Positions 2,915 to 22,369 of a stretch of DNA of 22,736 bases are shown one piece after another. The translations under genes were made by a program, and so were the position numbers. The notes under the pieces are model-generated. The model did not search any database. It saw only the letters and a program-made list of their open reading frames with translations, and was not told where the DNA came from. This DNA is from a virus: IMG/VR virus record IMGVR_UViG_3300010391_000029, positions 1 to 22,736 of that record. One strand, 5' to 3'. Position 1 is the first letter of the stretch. Every line of letters starts with the position of its first letter.

Positions 2915-3126
2915 CGCACTTCGTCAACATCGCACACATACGCCGATGGCCGAAATTCCGCTCGCGTGGTAGAGACGCACATGAGGCTCATCCTTTTGCC
3001 GTCGTGAGACAGGTAGCGGACGTCTACGATCTTTGGGAGTGTGGCGACTGGCTGACACCCGAAGGTCAACACTACCAGCACGATCCACCAGCTGAGCATA
3101 ATCAAGATGCCAGCAACCGTTCTCAT
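2911..3126 (-). CDS. Small membrane-anchored protein or lipoprotein (71 aa)
   Basis: An N-terminal hydrophobic segment (residues 5-23) ends in L-T-F-G-C24, close to but not a perfect lipobox, so it could be a lipoprotein or a single-pass membrane protein facing the periplasm. The remaining 47 residues have two further cysteines and a beta-like pattern (KIVDVRYLS, SLMCVST). The gene overlaps both neighbours by ATGA, so it is translated with the upstream exported protein and the downstream endolysin. Function is unknown. A lysis accessory or superinfection-related role is possible from position only. Confidence 0.6.
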   Translation of the reverse strand: MRTVAGILIMLSWWIVLVVLTFGCQPVATLPKIVDVRYLSHDGKRMSLMCVSTTRAEFRPSAYVCDVDEVR

Positions 3127-3593
3127 TGTTCTAGCACCTGAAAGCGGTTGTAATATGGCAGCACTGTCGCTACCGTCCCCGTGCAGTCTGTCGCAATCAC
3201 GGTCCAGGTGTAGACTCCTGGGGCGAAGCTCGCCACGGCACGAAGGAACGGCAGATTGAATCCTCGGTAATAGTCAGAGAGCCGAGGATCATAGTGTCCT
3301 GAATCGGCCTTCATATAGTGCGTCAACTGACCGCTAGAGCGTGCGACTAGGATATACACGTGCTCGGTGTCCACCGGCAGGCACACATCGTTTGGGTCAA
3401 AGTAGGTCCCCTTGAAGGCAATGGCATCTGTGGACAAGAACACGCGTTGTTCAATCCCTTTAGTGGGGTCTACCGTATAGGCCGAGGTGATCTGCTTCAC
3501 CAGGGCCGCCCCGTTCGGACTGGGCACGATGGGAAAACTGAACGCCACCGATGGCATGAGGAGACTACAGAGCAACCCTACGAGCCTTTGCAT
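3123..3593 (-). CDS. Exported hypothetical protein (156 aa)
   Basis: A clear Sec-type signal peptide is visible: basic start (MQR), a hydrophobic core (LVGLLCSLLMPSVAF) and likely cleavage after A-F-S. The mature protein of about 136 residues has beta-strand patterns and aromatic residues. It also has two cysteines (in NDVCLP and ATDCTG) that could form a disulfide in the periplasm. The end region (APGVYTWTVIATDCTG) resembles an immunoglobulin-like strand pattern, but I cannot name a fold. It starts at ATG 3593 inside the end of the preceding gene and ends in an ATGA overlap with the next. I see no catalytic motif. Confidence 0.65.
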   Translation of the reverse strand: MQRLVGLLCSLLMPSVAFSFPIVPSPNGAALVKQITSAYTVDPTKGIEQRVFLSTDAIAFKGTYFDPNDVCLPVDTEHVYILVARSSGQLTHYMKADSGHYDPRLSDYYRGFNLPFLRAVASFAPGVYTWTVIATDCTGTVATVLPYYNRFQVLEQ

Positions 3594-3865
3594 AGTTTAA
3601 CCTTCCCAAAGTAGCGTGGTTTCTCATCCGTGACCCAGTGCCCTTTCCGCTCCGTGTTCTCACGCGAGATGTAGATATGGTAGGTCCAGTCCGAAACGCC
3701 CACGCAGGTTCTATCACCAACGAATTGCCGAAGGGCCTCCTCTGCTTGGGACTCACGAACAACGACTGAGATGACCTTCGTCTCGTAGTTCGTTGTGGTG
3801 TCCCACTGGGCGGCCAGGAGCACAGGCGAGAGGAGCAGCAGTCCACCGAGCAGCCAGCGCCTCAT
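3578..3865 (-). CDS. Exported hypothetical protein (95 aa)
   Basis: The start chosen is ATG 3865, because GGAGGTGA lies 4 bases upstream and it places a signal peptide (MRRWLLGGLLLLSPVLLAAQ) exactly at the N-terminus. The longer upstream reading would bury that signal. The mature part of about 75 residues has two cysteines (TCVG, LCKG) and a strand-rich pattern with aromatic residues (WTYHIYIS). It overlaps the next gene's start by 16 bases. Function is unknown. It belongs to a run of small exported proteins upstream of the lysis genes. Confidence 0.7.
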   Translation of the reverse strand: MRRWLLGGLLLLSPVLLAAQWDTTTNYETKVISVVVRESQAEEALRQFVGDRTCVGVSDWTYHIYISRENTERKGHWVTDEKPRYFGKVKLCKGS

Positions 3866-3869
3866 CGTC

Positions 3870-3877
3870 TCACCTCC
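3870..3877 (-). promoter_or_regulatory. Ribosome-binding site deciding the 3865 start
   Basis: On the minus strand the sequence reads GGAGGTGA, four bases before ATG 3865. It is close to the full anti-16S complement and makes that start much more likely than an upstream start that would put the signal peptide inside the protein. Confidence 0.7.
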
Positions 3878-3881
3878 AGCG

Positions 3882-4061
3882 TCAAACTGGCGCTGGGACG
3901 GTCGCATCCAGCCCAAGGATTCTGACCTCAGACTTCATCACAAGCCCCTCACTATGACAGGTGAGACACGGCAACATATATAAGGCAGCGTCTTCGTATC
4001 CGGCGTTGAGGATGAGGTTCGTTCCGCAATCTAAACATTCCATTGTCGTAGTGACGCTCAT
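3882..4061 (-). CDS. Small zinc-knuckle protein (59 aa)
   Basis: Two C-x-x-C pairs, MECLDCG at the N-terminus and LPCLTCH about 22 residues later, form a typical four-cysteine zinc ribbon. The C-terminal 20 residues are hydrophobic and acidic with no metal ligands. ATG 4061 is chosen because GGGGAGGA lies 4 bases upstream. A longer reading would add an arginine-rich segment that shadows the upstream gene. The start overlaps the upstream stop by ATGA. Such small ribbons can bind nucleic acid or host proteins, but none of this can be assigned here. Confidence 0.65.
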   Translation of the reverse strand: MSVTTTMECLDCGTNLILNAGYEDAALYMLPCLTCHSEGLVMKSEVRILGLDATVPAPV

Positions 4062-11113: not shown

Positions 11114-11558
11114 TATTCCCCTCCAACAGATAGACATAATTTCGAGAGGCTTCCTTAAATCCGAGTTGTTCGTAGATCGTCCAGAGGCGTGGATTCTGTG
11201 ATCCGCAGACGATCTGCGCACAATTCTGGCTCATGGCGACCCGACGAAAGAGATCGCCAGAAGCCATGATATCCTCCTTCTCCATGAGGCGAAACGAATA
11301 CAGGCCGGTAATCACTAATTCCCGTTGTCCGGTGAGCTGATGTACTCGCACCTGTGTCAAGCAAACCTGGAGGATAGTGCGCTGCTCATCGAGCGTGACA
11401 AAACATTGCACCGTGTCACTCAACAGGCCATGCAAGAGGCGAAGGCAGACCTGCGGGAGCGCCTCCGGTGACACCTCCTGCGAGCGAACCGCTGCCAGCT
11501 TAATGACTTCCCACACCTGCGGCACCTGAGCCGGTAGCACTCTAATGATCGTGGACAT
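11103..11558 (-). CDS. GNAT-fold-like protein (T7 gp13-like position)
   Basis: A 151-residue protein whose C-terminal block, LWTIYEQLGFKEASRNYVYL (125-144), has the typical end of a GNAT acetyltransferase fold. The acetyl-CoA motif R/Q-x-x-G-x-G/A is not visible, so it is probably not an active enzyme. A GNAT-like protein without clear activity is also found as T7 gp13, an internal virion protein. Here it follows the propeller-like gene and precedes a membrane-inserting protein and two larger ones, as in T7. AAGGTGA precedes ATG 11558, which overlaps the upstream stop by 17 bases. An active acetyltransferase is not excluded. Confidence 0.6.
   Translation of the reverse strand: MSTIIRVLPAQVPQVWEVIKLAAVRSQEVSPEALPQVCLRLLHGLLSDTVQCFVTLDEQRTILQVCLTQVRVHQLTGQRELVITGLYSFRLMEKEDIMASGDLFRRVAMSQNCAQIVCGSQNPRLWTIYEQLGFKEASRNYVYLLEGNNGR
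11118..11124 (-). promoter_or_regulatory. Ribosome-binding site deciding the 11113 start
   Basis: Minus-strand GGAGGGG ends four bases before ATG 11113, inside the last codons of the preceding gene. It makes the 286-residue reading clearly better than the longer one. Confidence 0.65.
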
Positions 11559-12789
11559 GCCCGTTCACCTTGAGATAATCCAGATGGCCCCATGAGGCGG
11601 CAAGCGACTTGAGCAAAAACCGAAACTCGTAGCCGTAACAGCCTATGGGCTTGACGCCGCGATTGTCGATTGTGTAGAAGCTGGTACTCGCAAACGCCGA
11701 CGCGATCTTCTGCCGGTACTCAATGGCGATCTGGATCGTGGCCGCAGTATCAATCCCGACTTCTATGGACTGAATGGTCTTGGCGCGCCGCGTCCCGAAA
11801 TCGTAAATATCAGTCGTCACCGCCAGCAACGGCATGGCGATGGCCGCCGGAGCGGTCACATACTTGGTGCCATCCTGTACGCCGATCCCGGTCACGTTCA
11901 CCGGACCACGCCCAAGGCTCTTCGTGGCAGGATCGTAGACAAAGCCTTTCGTCCCATCACAGAGGTAGAGGAGCCGTTCATGTGGATCGTAGGATAGCAC
12001 CGGAGCCGAGCCGAGTTCAGACAGGTATTCTGAGTAGTCAAGAAAGGTCAGCCCTTGGCTTAATTCCCACAGTTGCGAGTGCTTATCCAGGAGGTACTGC
12101 ACCGAGTCAGTTCCAGCCACGGCCTGTTTGCTCTTGAGGCCGATGCGTGCAATGGTCTCTAACCCAAAGGCGTTCCCGGCAGGCGTCAGTATAGAGATCC
12201 CGTTCTCGCCGTAGGCCACCACCTTGTTCCCCAGCTTCTTGAGGGCATGAACCTTGCCCTTCCAGTCGAGTGGCCGCTCCCCAGCCAAGTTATCCTTAAG
12301 GATGGTGAAATCGAGCGCCCCAATGGTAGACCACTTGACCCAGTTGGCGCGTGTCGTGCTCGTGACAAACACTGGACTGGGAGAGACCGAGAGGGCTGGG
12401 TTGAACCCGACCAAGACCTGTAGAGGCGAGGCCACGATCGAAAAGCTCTTAACCAGTCCTGGTGCCGCAGAGGTAGGATCAGCCGTAGATGCAGGCTTGG
12501 AAAATCCCACCTCCACACGAAGCGGAGAGGCGACAATCCTCTTGTTTAGCCAAATTCCGAGGAGGTCAACCGTGACTCTTTGGGGAGTAGAAAAAAGGGT
12601 TTGGTCGAGGGCCGGATCTCTGGCGCTCGCCGTGGACGAACTATAGACCCCGCGAAGAGAGACCGCAGCCTGCAACGGCGCAGCGGTAATAGTCAGCGTG
12701 AGCAGAGCGGCAATCTGAGTCAGCCGCTGTGCAGGCTGCGGTGTCTCTTTCGAGGTCCAGAACGTCTTAGGCAGAAATGGGGGAAACAT
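11542..12789 (-). CDS. Beta-propeller-like tail hub or DNA-stabilisation protein (415 aa)
   Basis: The start chosen is ATG 12789, with GAGGGGA before it. Residues 30-130 contain four imperfect strand repeats ending in a P-L-Q-x-x-V type pattern. Residues 150-300 carry propeller-like blocks: VHALKKLGNKVVAYGENGIS, LDKHSQLWELS, LSYDPHERLLYLCDG. These recall the P22 gp10-like and nozzle or stabilisation proteins of short-tailed phages. Residues 335-410 form a C-terminal strand-rich domain ending HVHDH. The hydrophobic run near residue 30 is part of the first repeat, not a signal peptide. It would close the tail and hold packaged DNA. The family call is from pattern memory. Confidence 0.6.
   Translation of the reverse strand: MFPPFLPKTFWTSKETPQPAQRLTQIAALLTLTITAAPLQAAVSLRGVYSSSTASARDPALDQTLFSTPQRVTVDLLGIWLNKRIVASPLRVEVGFSKPASTADPTSAAPGLVKSFSIVASPLQVLVGFNPALSVSPSPVFVTSTTRANWVKWSTIGALDFTILKDNLAGERPLDWKGKVHALKKLGNKVVAYGENGISILTPAGNAFGLETIARIGLKSKQAVAGTDSVQYLLDKHSQLWELSQGLTFLDYSEYLSELGSAPVLSYDPHERLLYLCDGTKGFVYDPATKSLGRGPVNVTGIGVQDGTKYVTAPAAIAMPLLAVTTDIYDFGTRRAKTIQSIEVGIDTAATIQIAIEYRQKIASAFASTSFYTIDNRGVKPIGCYGYEFRFLLKSLAASWGHLDYLKVNGHVHDH
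12400..12690 (-). repeat. Four imperfect strand repeats at the N-terminus of the hub-like protein
   Basis: Units at about residues 34-47 (ITAAPLQAAVSLRG), 65-78 (LFSTPQRVTVDLLG), 84-97 (RIVASPLRVEVGFS) and 117-130 (SIVASPLQVLVGFN) share the pattern A/S-P-L/Q-x-x-V-x-L/V-G. The DNA copies are partly alike in the last two. They probably build a repeated beta structure. Confidence 0.6.
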
Positions 12790-12817
12790 GCTCACTCCCC
12801 TCTCAACTCACAGAGAC

Positions 12818-15507: not shown

Positions 15508-16689
15508 CTATCGGCATTTCCACCAGTACCCGCACGGCTCATGATCTACGAGACTAGCCGCCGCCTTGGTCCATCGCGGATTATTGACGTAGCCGAATTT
15601 GTCCGGTTGCGGAACGAAGGGCCAGGGGCCATTGCCTTTCGTCTTGAGCCAGCCGGTGGCGCTGAGAACGATGACGGCTGTGGCAACTTCCGCCCCCACC
15701 GCATAGAACGTGCTCGGGCTGAACTGATTGTTGTATTCGGTGGCGATCCAGTCGGCGGAACGAACGACATTTGAGACACGAACCTCATCCATGAGGCCAT
15801 TCAAAAAGAGACTGGGAGTCTTGAACGCCGCCAAGAAGGTTTCGACCGTTGTGCCCGTGTTCAACGTCCCTCCACTGGGAGAACCACTGGCATCTTGAGC
15901 GTCGTTCAGATAGACCTTAATGAGTGATCCGTCGCTGACAATTACGCCGTGATACCATTGGCCCGACACCAGCGTCGTCGCACCAGCAAGGGCCGCACTC
16001 TGGTAATTCAAGTTCAATTTACTGCTTTCAATTTCCATGGCAAAACGGCCACGAGTGGTCTCTGTCCCGGCGTAGAATAAAAATTGGCGAGTGCTGATGG
16101 TCGTGACACTCTTGAACCACCCGGAGACCGTCTTGACGGCATTGCCGGTCGGCACGATCGACGCAGCAATAGAGAGATAATCGTTTGACCCATCAAAGGA
16201 GATCGCCTTGTCTATCTGCCCCGTTGCGCCAAAGGTTGGGCCTCCGGTATCCGTGAGATGCTTCGCGTTGCTGGTCGAATCCTTGATAGTTCCCGATCCG
16301 CCAGCCGCTTCTTTGAGATGCCACACGCCATTGAAATTCACGTCCCATACGCCCGTCACGTCCTCCTGTGACGTGGTGATCGCGGCGTTGCCGTACCAGA
16401 GGTAAATGATGGTATCGGTCGCGGTAGTGACAGTAGGAACGCGAACCCAAAAGTTGACGGCTCCTGTGACGGGATTGTAGGATTCGATCTCATGATCGAG
16501 CTTGGTCAACCCGGCAGCATCGGAGGTGAAGATGATGTCGAAACCGCTGGAGCTTGTGACCTTGCCACCATTCGCCACAGTCGCAAGATAGGCATACGTC
16601 CCTGAGAATAGAACCGGGAAATTCACCTGGTTCGTGTTCGGGACCTTGGTTTTGTCTATTGTCAAAGTGCGCGAGAAGCCATAGACCAT
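15508..16689 (-). CDS. DUF2341 and LamG/concanavalin-like adhesin protein (393 aa)
   Basis: Residues 20-105 show the DUF2341 pattern (FPVLFSGTYAYLAT, SGFDIIFTSDAAGLTKLDHE, TIIYLWYGNA). Residues 130-310 show a LamG/concanavalin-type jelly roll: GVWHLKEA, AISFDGSNDYLSI, KTVSGWFKS, GQWYHGVIVSDGSLIKVYL, GLMDEVRVSN. This pair is common in phage tail proteins and bacterial secreted proteins that bind carbohydrates. The C-terminal 60 residues are separate (PWPFVPQPDKFGYVNNPRW) and end in CGYWWKCR, with two cysteines. GAGGA precedes ATG 16689. It is likely a receptor-binding or tail-associated sugar-binding protein. The ligand is unknown. Confidence 0.8.
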   Translation of the reverse strand: MVYGFSRTLTIDKTKVPNTNQVNFPVLFSGTYAYLATVANGGKVTSSSGFDIIFTSDAAGLTKLDHEIESYNPVTGAVNFWVRVPTVTTATDTIIYLWYGNAAITTSQEDVTGVWDVNFNGVWHLKEAAGGSGTIKDSTSNAKHLTDTGGPTFGATGQIDKAISFDGSNDYLSIAASIVPTGNAVKTVSGWFKSVTTISTRQFLFYAGTETTRGRFAMEIESSKLNLNYQSAALAGATTLVSGQWYHGVIVSDGSLIKVYLNDAQDASGSPSGGTLNTGTTVETFLAAFKTPSLFLNGLMDEVRVSNVVRSADWIATEYNNQFSPSTFYAVGAEVATAVIVLSATGWLKTKGNGPWPFVPQPDKFGYVNNPRWTKAAASLVDHEPCGYWWKCR

Positions 16690-16690
16690 G

Positions 16691-17080
16691 TTAGCGTCCT
16701 CGCGCCTTCCTCATCTCCGTAAAGACGGCTTTTAGCTTCGCATCTATGCTCGGATCAGCGAGCACGGCTGCAATCGCGGTGTCCAACGCGGCATTTGGAT
16801 TGGGACGCGGAATAGGCGCCGGTGGCGCTGAAAACACCTTGCCCACCGCGTTGTACAGATAGCCAACCTGCCCCCCAATCGCGTCAACGCCGATCAGACA
16901 CAGCTCACCCGACTCCGGCTGCCACTCGCCAGGTTTGCCGGTCCACTCATCCGGCAGCAGGATCATGTTTGTCACCACACCATTCTTCACAATCACTCCG
17001 GTCCTCGTTGCACCTCCCCAGGTGAGCAGGGGAGTGATGAGCAGCAGGAGTCCGCAGAGTATCCATCGCAGTGTCATCAT
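16691..17080 (-). CDS. Exported hypothetical protein in the adhesin block (129 aa)
   Basis: A Sec-type signal peptide (MMTLRWILCGLLLLITPLLT) is followed by W-G-G-A, a likely cleavage area. The mature part is strand-forming at first (TGVIVKNGVVTNMILLPDEW). A proline-rich hinge (APPAPIPRPNPNAALD) and a short basic helix at the end (KLKAVFTEMRKARGR) follow. GGAGGAG lies just before ATG 17080/17077. It begins 21 bases after the Gly-rich gene ends and runs into the LamG gene. No catalytic residues are seen. The signal peptide is unusual for a virion subunit. Confidence 0.6.
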   Translation of the reverse strand: MMTLRWILCGLLLLITPLLTWGGATRTGVIVKNGVVTNMILLPDEWTGKPGEWQPESGELCLIGVDAIGGQVGYLYNAVGKVFSAPPAPIPRPNPNAALDTAIAAVLADPSIDAKLKAVFTEMRKARGR

Positions 17081-17101
17081 CTCCTCCTCTTCTTCACTGA
17101 G

Positions 17102-18178
17102 CTACCACGACACCACCCACATATAGCCCGCACCTCCAGCTTCACCAGCGCCGCCGGTCGTAGTCCCACCCCCGCCACCACCGCCTCCGCCAGCCGGAGT
17201 CCCACCAGTTCCACCGACGCCGCCAGTACCAGCCGTATTCGCGCCGCCTCCACCCCCACCTTGACCGCCCTTCGTGGAATCGCCTGCTGCGCCATTGCCG
17301 CCTGCGCCGCCGCCGTTGGAGCCTGCTGCGCCACCGCCGCCGCCTGTATAATCAAAACTATTGGTGGCACCACCAGCAACAGCCGCAATGTAAGTATTGG
17401 CAATAAGTACCCCACCCCCGGCAGCGCCTCCACCGCCACTTCGCAGAGACTTTCCACCAAGTCCTGTCGCTACATAATTAAATGCCCCCCCACCTCCGCC
17501 GTAATCCGCTCCAGGGGAACCTTGATCTTCTGGAGATGCCACTTTGAATCCACCAAAACCACCCAAGCCAAGGATGAACTGCTCTGTTTCAATAGTTCTT
17601 GGGCTTACAAGAACAGGATCACCAGGCTTCCCAGTTCCATCGGCTGACGCCCCAGCACTCGCTGCGCCACCGCCGCCGCCTCCAATAGAGCTTTCTCCTA
17701 CTCCAACACCACCCCCGCCACCCGCTCCGCCTCCATAGGCCGTTAAGTATGCCCCAAACGTGGTATTTCCTCCAACCGCTCCATTACTTCCATTTGCGCT
17801 TGACCCACCGGCGCCACCGGTCCCGCCAAGTCCGATAGTGACAGAAACGGTCGCAGAAAGATCGGAGGCGCGGAAAGTTTTTGACACACACGCACCTCCG
17901 CCGCCACCCCCACCGCCCGCTCGATCATTTCCAGCGGCGCGACCTTCTCCTCCACCTGCACCGCCACCAGGAGCGCACGCCTTGACCTCCACCCACGTCA
18001 CCCCGGCGGGCTTCGTCCACGTTCCGCTGCCTGAGAACGTCTGCACGTCCGTTGCAACGCCCGGACCTGTTGGTCCCGTTGAACCCGCGGGACCTGGTTG
18101 GGTCAAGGACCCAGCGAAGAGTGGAGAGAACCATCCTAGCAGCAGGAGCAGGACGAGACTGACGAGTCGCCTGGTCAT
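17102..18178 (-). CDS. Polyglycine-rich fibre or adhesin protein with signal peptide (358 aa)
   Basis: Domains in order: a signal peptide (residues 1-22, MTRRLVSLVLLLLLGWFSPL), four collagen-like G-x-y triplets (29-40), then the segment SGSGTWTKPAGVTWVEVKAC (49-68). That segment begins the glycine-rich tail-fibre domain found in many phages. From residue 71 on there are repeated glycine runs split by polar strands, ending in GYMWVVSW. Such sequences can form the polyglycine-II sandwich known from receptor-binding tips of some phage tail fibres. The signal peptide is unexpected for a virion protein, as these are normally assembled in the cytoplasm. ATG 18178 shares an A with the upstream TAA. 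It could instead be an exported surface protein of the infected cell. Confidence 0.75.
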   Translation of the reverse strand: MTRRLVSLVLLLLLGWFSPLFAGSLTQPGPAGSTGPTGPGVATDVQTFSGSGTWTKPAGVTWVEVKACAPGGGAGGGEGRAAGNDRAGGGGGGGGACVSKTFRASDLSATVSVTIGLGGTGGAGGSSANGSNGAVGGNTTFGAYLTAYGGGAGGGGGVGVGESSIGGGGGGAASAGASADGTGKPGDPVLVSPRTIETEQFILGLGGFGGFKVASPEDQGSPGADYGGGGGAFNYVATGLGGKSLRSGGGGAAGGGVLIANTYIAAVAGGATNSFDYTGGGGGAAGSNGGGAGGNGAAGDSTKGGQGGGGGGANTAGTGGVGGTGGTPAGGGGGGGGGTTTGGAGEAGGAGYMWVVSW

Positions 18179-18546
18179 TAGTAACTCCCTTCTGTGACCA
18201 GCAGCGTTTTCGTGGCGGCCCCCGCATGGATACAGTTCACGGCCCCGATCATCAGAAATTCGTTGAGGGCGCCAGGCGATCTGCTGTCCATTAGGAGATT
18301 GCCCCCACTCGCCATGAGTCTGATGCCCTCACTGGCGACCGCCGCTGCGCCGATCTTGATGTCAATCGCGGTATCGCTGATATTCTCCAAGAGCAGGAAG
18401 GTTCGCTGGGTATTCAGGGCGACGACCGCCGTGGTGGTCGTCGCACACGCCACACTCGTATGCGTCACGACCGGCGCTGCGGCCAGCGCGAGACTACCGA
18501 GCAGCCCAACCCCGAGACCGATCAAGACAACCAGTAGCCGTGTCAT
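18178..18546 (-). CDS. Exported conserved-looking phage protein (122 aa)
   Basis: AAGGAGGG precedes ATG 18546. A signal peptide (MTRLLVVLIGLGVGLLGSLA, cleavage near A-L-A-A) is followed by a strand-rich domain: LNTQRTFLLLENISDTAIDI, IGAAAVASEGIRLMASGGN, FLMIGAVNCIHAGAATKTLL. Phage proteins with this N-I-S-D-T and G-A-V-N-C-I-H pattern recur as small structural proteins, normally without a signal peptide. Two cysteines could pair in the periplasm. It ends TAATG with the polyglycine protein, so the two are made together. Whether it decorates the virion or the cell surface is open. Confidence 0.65.
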   Translation of the reverse strand: MTRLLVVLIGLGVGLLGSLALAAAPVVTHTSVACATTTTAVVALNTQRTFLLLENISDTAIDIKIGAAAVASEGIRLMASGGNLLMDSRSPGALNEFLMIGAVNCIHAGAATKTLLVTEGSY

Positions 18547-18561: not shown

Positions 18562-19053
18562 TTATCCGGTTGGCAGGAGCCCGCCGACCATCACCTGTCC
18601 GTGAATGTTGACGATCGCCTCAGCATTGGGAAGCGTGGTGTCGAGTGCAAAGACCTTATCCGTCGCACGCCGTACCACCGCGACGACGCCATTGCTCAGA
18701 TAGAGGAAGTCGTAGAATTCCACCGCCGACCAGACCGAGCCCGCCGTCAGACTCCCCAATTTGAGGGTGAGCGTACTGGGAGGCGTCCACTCATAGATCG
18801 CGGTGAGACCGCAGACCACGATCAAGTTGGTGAAGGTAAAGATTTGCGGGTACGGAAACGGATCGGTAATCGCGGTCGTGGCGATTCTCGTCAGGGTCTC
18901 CAGTTCTTGCAGACTCCCATCATGGCCCACCGCCCCTTGACACTGAGTGAGAAACCCACTATCCCGTGGCATACGGGTAGAGGGCCGGAGTCCACGGATC
19001 AGCTTCGGCGAGTCAATGTGCAGCGAAAAGCTCCGGTCCTCAGATTTCGCCAT
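18562..19053 (-). CDS. Propeller-like short protein, candidate P22 gp10-like piece (163 aa)
   Basis: The first 60 residues hold PKLIRGLRPSTRMPRDSGFL and CQGAVGHDGSLQELETLTRI. Then come blade-like strands FPYPQIFTFTNLIVVCGLTA, FYDFLYLSNGVVAVVRRATD and AIVNIHGQVMVGG. These recall short-tail hub or stabilisation proteins of the P22 gp10 or nozzle type, but the protein stops after one part of such a fold. The 415-residue gene at 11542-12789 has further propeller-like blades, so the two could form one hub in two parts. GGAG lies 9 bases before ATG 19053. It follows the neck genes, where hub genes usually lie. Confidence 0.55.
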   Translation of the reverse strand: MAKSEDRSFSLHIDSPKLIRGLRPSTRMPRDSGFLTQCQGAVGHDGSLQELETLTRIATTAITDPFPYPQIFTFTNLIVVCGLTAIYEWTPPSTLTLKLGSLTAGSVWSAVEFYDFLYLSNGVVAVVRRATDKVFALDTTLPNAEAIVNIHGQVMVGGLLPTG

Positions 19054-19411
19054 GTGGAGACTCCGATCCAGCCTCGACCCTCAGTGGAGGCAGATGCCGA
19101 GAGGGCGTTCGAGAGACCATCGTCGTGTCAAGCGGCTGGATGGTCCTGATCCGCTCACGAATCTGCGGCACCGCTTCCTTCAGGATGTCCTCATAGCGCA
19201 TTCCCGGAGATCGGCCCTCGATCATCTCTAATACCGATGCCACCGCCTGTTTATTGTCACGAAACTCTGGATGGTCACGATAAAACCCCTCGGTCAGCTT
19301 CGCCATGGCCGTATGAGAGACCAGGAGGTTCCCGACTACTTGCGGGAGCATGAGGAGCGCCTTTTCAACGGCCCGGTCGATGATCTCTTGCTTCTCGTCC
19401 TCAGTCATCAT
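19040..19411 (-). CDS. Helical hypothetical neck-region protein (123 aa)
   Basis: ATG 19411 is chosen because it overlaps the upstream stop by ATGA. A GTG six bases earlier is possible. The product is mainly helical (EKQEIIDRAVEKALLMLPQV, FYRDHPEFRDNKQAVASVLE, YEDILKEAVPQIRERIRTIQ) with a proline/arginine-rich tail that overlaps the next gene. Such helical proteins between the neck and hub genes of short-tailed phages are common but poorly described. No catalytic or membrane motif is present. A scaffold or connector-accessory role is possible from position only. Confidence 0.6.
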   Translation of the reverse strand: MMTEDEKQEIIDRAVEKALLMLPQVVGNLLVSHTAMAKLTEGFYRDHPEFRDNKQAVASVLEMIEGRSPGMRYEDILKEAVPQIRERIRTIQPLDTTMVSRTPSRHLPPLRVEAGSESPHGEI

Positions 19412-20121
19412 AGCCACCCATCCGTCGTGATATCCCAGCGGCGTCTGTCCACTGTCAACGCCGCATCGAGCGGGACATTATCTGGGATCAGCCGCTTGCT
19501 GTTATTTGTGAAGAGCGTAGCTTCCGCCCGCAGCGCATTCTTTTCCAAAAGCGCATCCGACTTGCCGAAACTAGACATCAGGCGCATCGCCAGGTTCAAC
19601 ACTAATGGATTCTCATATTCTGGGGGGAGCGCGATGGTCTCGGTGCTCGCTGCAAATTCCACAATGGACACAAGCGAGTGTAGGTCCACGGCATAGGCGG
19701 CGTCAGGCGTGGGGTAAAAGTTCATGGTCCCGAGGGTCCACGCCGGGTCGTAATAGACCTCATCGGGGATGCCGGTCGGATAGGTGCGGTAGTCCCGATA
19801 GCGAAAGAGGGCATTATAGACTGCGAGCGAGCGAAACACCCCAGTGCTCTCCGTTAGCACGGCATCCACCAACTCAACCGGACGCCTGACGTTAAAGGCC
19901 CCGCTCGCCCCGATGGTATAAGAGGCCGTGCCGCTGACGAGCGTGACGCTATTCTTCGTCAAGGCGTGCAGCTTCATCCCTTCGACCGCCCAGTCCTGGA
20001 GCATCGCGTTGATTTTGGCTAACCCCTTGGCCTTGAATTCTGTCGTGATTGCTGCCGCTTCTCCAATCGGAACCACGCCCAACTCTTCTAAGGCCGCTTT
20101 AATGATGTCATCAACGGTCAT
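19408..20121 (-). CDS. P22 gp4-like neck (head-closure) protein (237 aa)
   Basis: A 237-residue protein with the pattern of the P22 tail accessory factor gp4 family. The N-terminal helix (DIIKAALEELGVVP) is followed by KINAMLQDWAVEG, the strand region SGTASYTIGASGAFNVRRPV, and FYPTPDAAYAVDLHSLV. Near the end lies the ALPPEYENPLVLNLAMRL helix seen in this family. In P22-like phages this protein binds under the portal and connects the head to the tail. The length is typical. It is read from ATG 20121, overlapping the glycosyltransferase stop by ATGA. This gives one of the two firmest links to P22-like head-tail assembly. Confidence 0.8.
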   Translation of the reverse strand: MTVDDIIKAALEELGVVPIGEAAAITTEFKAKGLAKINAMLQDWAVEGMKLHALTKNSVTLVSGTASYTIGASGAFNVRRPVELVDAVLTESTGVFRSLAVYNALFRYRDYRTYPTGIPDEVYYDPAWTLGTMNFYPTPDAAYAVDLHSLVSIVEFAASTETIALPPEYENPLVLNLAMRLMSSFGKSDALLEKNALRAEATLFTNNSKRLIPDNVPLDAALTVDRRRWDITTDGWL

Positions 20122-20804
20122 GGTGCCTCGCTTCCTCCTGGTTGCCGCAGCATGAAATTATGAAAATTCCCTGGAAATGCCTGCTCGCCATTGTGGTGGG
20201 TGATATTCAGGTCCGGCACGATCCAAATCTCCCCGCCCGCGTTCTCCCAATTCCGAGAGAAGGCGTAATCTTCACCCCACCACACACCTTTGAAGGCCCC
20301 ATGATTGAACAGGTCGATGGAGGGGTTGTAGCGTGGGCCATAGATCAACTCGGGATACGCCTCCATAAATCGGTGAATGGCTCCCTTCGTCACTTTCAGA
20401 AAGCCAGCCGGCACCCGCTCTGCCTTAATGCACCCGTCACTTCTGACAATGGGGCGATTGTCTCCATTGGTGTGAAGGGTCCCCATATACTCTTCTTCTG
20501 ATTTCTTCAGCCGATAGGTTCCGGCAATCACGTCGCCCTCGGTTTCGATCAGGGTCAGGAGGTCTCGCGGTGCCCAACTCAGATCGTAGTCGAGATACAC
20601 GATGACATCGGCCTTCGCATCGAGCGCACGGCGAGTCAGCTTTGACCGAGCCACAGAAATATAGGGACATTGGACTTCCTGTACATACGCCTCCTCCCAT
20701 CCCGCTGAAATGATCAGCGGAATAGACGCCTCCAGAGCGGCGATATACGGGCCGGTCGGCCCAGCCAGCGAGGGCGTACAAAACACCACCTTTTTGCCGG
20801 TCAT
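20118..20804 (-). CDS. GT-A glycosyltransferase-like protein (228 aa)
   Basis: From ATG 20804 the protein opens with the GT-A strand KKVVFCTPSLAGPTGPY. The DxD motif is D72-Y73-D74 in YLDYDLSW. VPAGFLKVTKGAIHRF and WWGEDYAFSRNW later give acceptor-side and acidic motifs, with a H203-H204 pair near the end. These features match family-2-like phage glycosyltransferases that transfer a sugar from a nucleotide donor. An in-frame GTG at 20840 could extend it, but neither start has a good ribosome-binding site. Its place between the coat and neck genes suggests modification of a head protein or of host surface sugars. Neither is shown by the sequence. Confidence 0.75.
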   Translation of the reverse strand: MTGKKVVFCTPSLAGPTGPYIAALEASIPLIISAGWEEAYVQEVQCPYISVARSKLTRRALDAKADVIVYLDYDLSWAPRDLLTLIETEGDVIAGTYRLKKSEEEYMGTLHTNGDNRPIVRSDGCIKAERVPAGFLKVTKGAIHRFMEAYPELIYGPRYNPSIDLFNHGAFKGVWWGEDYAFSRNWENAGGEIWIVPDLNITHHNGEQAFPGNFHNFMLRQPGGSEAP

Positions 20805-20825
20805 GGTATGAGTACCCGGCGCGGC

Positions 20826-20852
20826 CCCGGACTGGCCCACTGCCGATCCGGG
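20826..20852 (-). other. Possible hairpin before the glycosyltransferase start
   Basis: On the minus strand CCCGGA at 20852-20847 can pair with TCCGGG at 20831-20826, giving a 6-base stem with a 15-base loop. There is no T-run, so it is not a classic terminator. Together with the weak ribosome-binding site it could lower glycosyltransferase expression relative to the head genes. Confidence 0.3.
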
Positions 20853-21142: not shown

Positions 21143-22369
21143 TTACCCTCTGCATCTTGCCGCCCACTCGGGCCTCAGCGTCTTGTATCCAAACAGGACA
21201 TCTGTCCGACAGGGGAACTTGTCGTTCACGATGTCGAACTGCCGCACGATGCGGAGGGAAATGCCATCGAAAACTTCTCGCGCGGCGAAATCGACGCCCT
21301 TCGGCATCTCCAGGTCCGCCGTGACAAAGGTGAACGCATCCCGGTGGTACACCAAGGGCTGCGTCAGGACCGCCGAGGCTTCTCCAGATCCGCCGGTGGC
21401 CAGGTTGACCACGGCCTTGCTTGCGCCGGCGCTGACCAGCTCGATGTTCTGCTTGGCGCCAGAGGTGATGGGCGTGGGGGAGACCGCCGGGGACATGTCG
21501 CCTGAGCCGGTCTCGGTCTCATCCGCCGTGACCACCCACTGCTGGAGGTGGGCGTACCGCTGCTTGGTCTCCAGGTTCACTGCGTACACGTCGCCGACGG
21601 TGAACACGTCGCCCTTCTTGTAGGTCTTGGCATCGGGGAACGCGGTCATGGTGATGACCGCCGTGCCACTCGTGATCCCGGTCGAGGTGTTCACGACCGG
21701 CGTAGTGTCGGTGCGGGTGCCGTTGGTATGGCTCGGCACCATATTCGACTCCCACCACTTGAGTCCGGCTGCCATGCCGATATAGCCATCGGCAAAGGCG
21801 CGCTCCAACTCGCTCGCCTTGTGGAAGTACAGGCCCACCGCGTTCACCAACGGGAACATGGTCGCGGAGTTGAGCAGAAAGTGCCGGTTGCCCTGCTCGG
21901 CCAGGCCCTCACTCACGCGCGCGTTGGCGCTGAGCGGGTCGATCATCGCGTCCGGCTCCGCGTCCGGGTCGCCGGTGAGGTTATAGATGTCCTTGTAGAT
22001 GTTCGACAGCACGATGGACTCAACCTCGGCAGCGAGGCGAGCCATCGCGGGTTCGAGAATCCGTGTGGCGAAGTCGTCCAGCGAGAGCGTCAGCTCGACA
22101 GAGCTGAAGTTCATGTCCACGCCCCGCTGCGTCCCCAAGACGAGTGACTGCGATGTCTCGGCCACATCCTGCGCGTCCATGATGGCGCCCGACCGCACCG
22201 TGAACTGATTGGGCTCACGGATGAGGAGGGTGCCGCCGTTCTTCGCGCCGGACTTGGCGAAGCGGTTGTCGTATTCCCGGTTGATGGTCTTGATGAACTT
22301 CAGCTTGTTGTGGAGAATACTCAACGCCTTGCGGGTTACTTCTGTCGGCGTGAGGATTGTATTTGCCAT
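21143..22369 (-). CDS. Major capsid protein, P22 coat family (408 aa)
   Basis: The N-terminus (MANTILTPTEVTRKALSILH, then NREYDNRF) and the block GGTLLIREPNQFTVRSGA are typical of the P22 gp5-like coat family (HK97 fold). LSLDDFATRILEPAMARLA continues the pattern. The long central part (about residues 225-310, with many T, G and S) fits the inserted I-domain of this family, and the C-terminal TADLEMPKGVDFAAREVFDG block is also characteristic. 408 residues is near the usual length of 400-430. It follows the scaffold gene and is read from ATG 22369 with AGAGGA upstream. It builds the icosahedral shell on a scaffold core. This is the firmest assignment in the window. Confidence 0.9.
   Translation of the reverse strand: MANTILTPTEVTRKALSILHNKLKFIKTINREYDNRFAKSGAKNGGTLLIREPNQFTVRSGAIMDAQDVAETSQSLVLGTQRGVDMNFSSVELTLSLDDFATRILEPAMARLAAEVESIVLSNIYKDIYNLTGDPDAEPDAMIDPLSANARVSEGLAEQGNRHFLLNSATMFPLVNAVGLYFHKASELERAFADGYIGMAAGLKWWESNMVPSHTNGTRTDTTPVVNTSTGITSGTAVITMTAFPDAKTYKKGDVFTVGDVYAVNLETKQRYAHLQQWVVTADETETGSGDMSPAVSPTPITSGAKQNIELVSAGASKAVVNLATGGSGEASAVLTQPLVYHRDAFTFVTADLEMPKGVDFAAREVFDGISLRIVRQFDIVNDKFPCRTDVLFGYKTLRPEWAARCRG

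Follow-up and report, generated by a model that had tools for sequence, protein, structure and literature searches.

Assembly of tailed phages is taught as a wholly cytoplasmic process, and tail fibres of the kind of gp48 from Pelagibacter phage HTVC112P are put together in the cytoplasm. Virion proteins with Sec signals are known from filamentous phages, whose pIII and pVIII are membrane-anchored and whose virion is extruded. The locus described here also codes for putative virion proteins with Sec-type signals but belongs to a tailed phage that has a P22-like coat and genes for lysis. Its proteins resemble a pair found in other tailed phages (IMG/VR loci, and BFVD fold matches such as the uncharacterised I2FLS9/I2FLT0 of Pseudomonas phage tf). 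There, a jelly-roll protein of a family defined in this work, named NDSDT, is paired with a fibre featuring an M-x-L-x-N-P start. The jelly-roll domain is the same (~40% identity), as is the gene order with an adjoining fibre, often near capsid or connector genes. These pairs differ from the present locus in that their jelly-roll protein has neither a signal nor a cysteine pair at the same positions, and their fibre begins at the motif. No description of exported tail fibres was found among open-licence papers.

The locus lies in a 22.7-kb IMG/VR record that was analysed over its entire length (the window). Its late genes are found in the minus strand. They begin with the scaffold and the P22-like coat (21143-22369; Pfam P22_CoatProtein, PF11651, 8e-27; phrog_283), which served as bait for collecting relatives, and continue with a 78-aa gene, a glycosyltransferase-like gene (20118-20840; phrog_1574), a gp4-like head-tail adaptor (19408-20121; Pfam SU10_adaptor, 1.9e-12), a 125-aa gene and hubN (18562-19053), which codes for a conserved 163-aa protein. 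Three genes named here SP1, SP2 and SP3 come next, followed by a gene coding for a DUF2341/laminin-G protein, several small genes, hubC, an acetyltransferase-like gene, ejection-type proteins and the lysis region. The coat and adaptor families, arranged in the same order as in a Desulfofustis phage, identify a P22-like podovirus as judged from genes alone. The glycosyltransferase-like gene separates coat and adaptor in nearly all relatives and codes for a possible modifier of the capsid or of the fibres.

SP1 (18178-18546), SP2 (17102-18178) and SP3 (16691-17080) code for 122, 358 and 129 aa, respectively, in consecutive frames that overlap or almost abut. Their ribosome sites are well placed: AAGGAGG for SP1 (18546), GAAGGGAG with a TAATG overlap for SP2 (18178) and GAGGAGG for SP3 (17080). 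Each protein features a basic n-region, an uncharged hydrophobic core and small residues at positions -3/-1 of a Sec/signal peptidase I-type cleavage site. The predicted signals are MTRLLVVLIGLGVGLLGSLALA, preceding AAPVV, in SP1; MTRRLVSLVLLLLLGWFSPLFA, preceding GSLTQPGP, in SP2; and MTLRWILCGLLLLITPLLTWGGA, preceding TRTG, in SP3. The calls were made with a simple n/h/c-region rule, which finds 24 of the 25 E. coli signal peptides used as controls. The rule is positive for the three proteins, as a preliminary description of the window had proposed from the ORFs, and for all eight signalled SP1 homologues when the window is counted. Applied to the other phage genes of the comparison loci that have RBS support and code for 80 aa or more, it is positive for 13 of 614 (2.1%), several of the 13 being themselves long fibre-like late genes. 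At that background rate three consecutive signals among ~19 late genes are unlikely to occur by chance (~2e-4).

None of the remaining window genes between gp4 and hubC has a comparably strong hydrophobic start. A candidate fourth signal on hubC (taken as 11542-12795) was rejected, its hydrophobic stretch beginning past residue 20 and not being kept in relatives. Past the signal, SP1-SP3 show no second transmembrane segment, no lipobox and no recognisable anchor; they are predicted Sec/signal peptidase I substrates, soluble once cleaved. SP2 matches Pfam Gly_rich_2 with 32.2 bits (cut-off 24.3), in agreement with its initial depiction as a polyglycine fibre-like protein, and its match to phrog_863 (tail) may be compositional. 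SP3 has no detectable relatives in viral contigs or annotated phages. By sequence, SP1 gave no significant family in PHROGs, Pfam, NCBIfam or the PDB and no match in annotated phages.

SP1 relatives adjoining gp4 were found in contigs L002, L003, L004/L005, L006, L011 and L036, most of the relatives being fragments, whose coats are 64-82% identical to that of the window. In the comparison of homologue amino termini called for in the preliminary description, the SP1 signal is kept in these six relatives with P22-like coats, making seven clade members with the window, and also in L047. The head region of L047 is of another kind (large terminase, portal, protease and a different coat, judged from ORFs), yet the signalled pair is present. 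The eight signals have a charge of +1 or +2, no acidic residue and a small-x-small cleavage site, and in the relatives of the clade W-I-P-x-D-Y-E follows. Pairwise identity averages 30% in the signals versus 64% in the mature parts, as expected where selection acts on signal character alone. When alignments of SP1 or of the coat were searched against 84,980 genomes of bacteria and archaea, no relatives were found.

In all eight cases the gene after the signalled SP1 codes for a variable fibre-like protein with a signal of its own, which in the clade ends in A before G-[S/N/W/F]-L. Counterparts of SP2 by position and amino terminus are recognised in L002, L003, L004, L006, L011, L036 and L047. 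Two relatives have additional signalled genes (113 and 78 aa in L004, 72 aa in L036) that are unrelated to SP3 though in the same slot. All genes that separate gp4 from the 125-aa gene are signalled in L004 (four genes), L036 (three) and L006 (two). In the window the signalled block stands instead after hubN, and in the more distant relative L022 hubN directly follows gp4 and the block is absent. The difference in position between window and relatives implies that SP1-SP3-type blocks move as a unit.

Broader scans yielded 67 distinct SP1-type domains (alignment A5). SP1 belongs to this NDSDT family by its homologous domain with N..SDT and GIRL.A.GG motifs and by the fibre-like gene next to it. 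It is the protein that had been noticed as following a pattern normally seen without a signal, and 59 of the 67 members are indeed unsignalled, being short proteins or carboxyl-terminal domains of longer ones. The rule also calls a signal in L066, where the hydrophobic stretch is weak and forms part of the conserved domain; this call is counted as a false positive. At least two cysteines occur in the SP1 domain of 8/8 signalled and 10/59 unsignalled members (Fisher 6.7e-6, with relatedness ignored and small numbers). The combination of the SDTxI[D/Y]C cysteine with the N-C-I cysteine is found in 7/8 signalled versus 0/59 unsignalled members. Window SP1, whose cysteines are C34 and C105, has lost the SDTxI[D/Y]C cysteine and features V-A-C instead. 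A peptide scan for the cysteine motif added one relative, unsignalled and cysteine-free. At least two changes of signal label are forced by well-supported branches of the family tree. On this tree the SP1 signal has at least two origins, both accompanied by a second cysteine; since the tree needs two label changes, the cysteine pair was probably completed twice. The co-occurrence of cysteines and signal rests on these two origins and is partly phylogenetic.

The AF2 model of SP1, built from 59 sequences (a version from seven was poor), has a pLDDT of 86. It shows an all-beta domain spanning residues ~21-122, with residues 1-20 at low confidence outside the fold. Fold searches lead to jelly-rolls and cupins, including many short uncharacterised phage proteins; the comparison to the PM2 spike P1 gives Z 9.8 over 85 residues with an rmsd of 2.5. 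Going by the secondary structure of the model and the usual jelly-roll order, strands 61-65 and 103-107, where the relatives have their cysteines, would be neighbours. SP1 is also similar in fold to Ena1B, Ena2A and Ena3A, the subunits of disulphide-linked jelly-roll fibres that form Bacillus endospore appendages. The best Foldseek score is 8e-4 (9i0y), and VIA, whose fold comparison covers the families in its list, gives Z 9.1 and rmsd 4.2 over 96 residues at 12% identity (7a02). A profile of seven SP1 sequences found no match among PDB sequences, and the similarity to Ena is one of fold. Ena fibres are put together inside the mother cell, and their subunits are not known to be exported by Sec. 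Jelly-roll folds being common, the resemblance to Ena is a likeness only, and the fold matches of the model should be read as indicating fold class.

The gene following unsignalled SP1 relatives codes for N-P within its first ten residues in 23/54 cases versus 28/503 background genes, the start being typically M-P-L-x-N-P. In two other phage lineages a signal stands directly before this motif: AG precedes PLDNPLNNP in L117, KG precedes DIYNPTD in L098. The L117 contig codes for a T7-like head-tail adaptor (phrog_332, 1.8e-132) and has a second signalled fibre-like gene, while in L098 the fibre is signalled and its jelly-roll partner is not. In the clade of the window the amino-terminal motif of the fibre is short and loosely conserved. 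Fibre-type domains were found in SP2 (Gly_rich_2) and, through PHROG fibre and spike matches, in the counterparts of L006 and L036. Domains of the L006 fibre recur in virion structural and tail-spike families (2.4e-18 to 1.8e-9), and this fibre also has domains in common with tail fibres of isolated phages. Internal fibre domains are held in common with phrog_4636, phrog_23837 and HTVC112P gp48, the last of which differs in having no signal peptide.

Long signalled fibre-like genes of other kinds are present in the coat relatives L021, L032 and L037. The long fibre-like proteins of L021 (8619-10859) and L032 (4744-6816) have almost identical signals and first mature residues (FAGWEDK and FASWEDK, respectively), with the rest differing, which suggests a constant amino-terminal end joined to a variable body. 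A second signalled fibre-like gene was also found in the T7-like phage contig L147 (3243-4385; MLKYLKTLATAAILSLGIAPWAQA preceding AVV) and has no PHROG match. From their sequences, exported fibres seem to recur.

The host is probably diderm if the architecture of a gene pair is a guide. Positions 1797-2232 of the minus strand code for a probable overlapping spanin pair, formed by an 85-aa protein with an amino-terminal transmembrane segment and an 83-aa protein with the lipobox LSAC. A Pfam search gave no match, so the assignment comes from architecture, which suggests two membranes. Near the lysis region, at 3123-3916, are another two small genes with signals (156 and 95 aa), neither of which has a family match.

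The reading we lean towards, with slightly less than even confidence, is that SP1-SP3 form a Sec-exported fibre module, with SP1 stabilised by a disulphide, that docks on released virions after lysis. The jelly-roll partner SP1, the variable fibre SP2 and one or two small accessories (SP3) would each carry a cleavable signal, pass into the periplasm and be cut by signal peptidase I, and a disulphide bond would stabilise at least SP1. Cleavage would expose the short conserved amino terminus of the fibre (G-S-L-x-x-P type) as a constant docking end, the remainder being free to vary. The proteins, unanchored, would stay periplasmic until the lysis genes open the envelope; fibre and partner would then meet released virions and dock as late-added adhesion fibres. 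The analysis shows how the genes are built, that their signal features are conserved, that they behave as a block, that cysteines co-occur with the signal and to which fold class SP1 belongs; from this we infer export, cleavage, disulphide formation, docking and its timing. By synteny and family, SP1 is a putative virion component. Late docking is favoured because the unsignalled counterparts resemble a virion pair beside capsid genes, because the exported L006 fibre and virion proteins have domains in common, and because the signal stands immediately before the conserved start of the fibre.

Virion membership is what separates this scheme from its main rival, rather unlikely in our view, in which the proteins are exported and never join the particle. 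They would be free adhesins, set free by lysis or kept periplasmic, with receptors, debris or matrix as their targets (receptors being blocked), or would counter superinfection at the envelope. The evidence speaks neither for nor against the decoy or receptor-blocking functions raised at the outset. The export evidence is the same, the cleaved proteins are soluble and unanchored, and their anatomy would equally suit a free secreted adhesin. However, the unsignalled family members form with their fibre a conserved pair beside capsid and connector genes, and the exported fibre has domains common to virion proteins, both suggestive of a virion origin. Display on the cell is very improbable, even though the composition of SP2 is fibre-like: members tested have no lipobox, second transmembrane segment or recognised anchor, which makes surface exposure before lysis unlikely. 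The earlier idea of an anchored adhesin of an infected cell or lysogen loses ground for this reason and because no integrase was found in the 42-kb relative G005 or the other records tested. The related idea of a coat around the infected cell fits poorly with a diderm host, where a cleaved soluble protein would remain periplasmic until lysis.

The location of SP1-SP3 among virion genes could also be accounted for by hydrophobic starts that are never cut off and that, on proteins of the virion, help in its assembly or in docking ejected proteins to a membrane. This explanation, likewise raised at the outset, is improbable: the basic n-region, the core and the small -3/-1 residues are kept while the sequence diverges, the unsignalled relatives of the module lack any hydrophobic start, and the fold of the model spans residues 21-122, with 1-20 outside it. 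Chance hydrophobic termini or misassigned start codons are hardly credible; the heuristic does call ~2% of phage genes, but here the ribosome sites are strong, three signals follow one another, and their conservation extends to divergent relatives and to an unrelated phage. As a prediction, the proposal that a late operon codes for an exported set of adhesins or fibres is well supported by signal conservation, the co-occurring cysteine pair and block behaviour.

A conserved, mobile set of exported fibres would, if real, either add an assembly step after lysis or reveal extracellular adhesins made by the phage and released at each burst. Both outcomes change the annotation of fibre genes and views on the control of host range and superinfection. 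It is possible, if still doubtful, that tailed phages partly build their adhesion apparatus outside the cytoplasm, using a mobile jelly-roll and fibre cassette that is Sec-exported, disulphide-hardened in the periplasm and fitted to virions only after lysis, the cassette or an equivalent having arisen in several unrelated phage types. A signalled fibre gene beside a signalled jelly-roll gene is a simple sequence rule by which any collection of phages can be screened.

HubC (11542-12789, minus strand) codes for a 415-aa protein whose profile aligns to residues 166-432 of one continuous ORF of 453 aa in Desulfofustis phage OP947158 (5e-17), located at the same place between gp4 and the acetyltransferase-like gene. 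HubN, just upstream of SP1-SP3 and kept in L004, L006, L022 and L036, is probably the amino-terminal half of this tail hub, though its match to the Desulfofustis ORF is weak. The hub looks divided between two genes that lie ~5.8 kb from each other and enclose variable fibre-type genes, and the same split is present in L004, L036 and L022. Comparison to gp10 of DSL-LC05 and relatives did not support the split; the carboxyl-terminal half is supported through the Desulfofustis phage. In L003 (7722-9063) the gp4-like adaptor region occurs as two consecutive copies. A conserved motif of ~45 residues, NKGxGPWxFxxQxxKxGYVNNPRW..DHEPCGYW, forms the carboxyl terminus of the DUF2341/laminin-G protein of the window (15508-15660) and the amino terminus of propeller-like proteins of 350-480 aa in L004, L005, L006, L036 and L022, giving the impression of a docking end that was moved.
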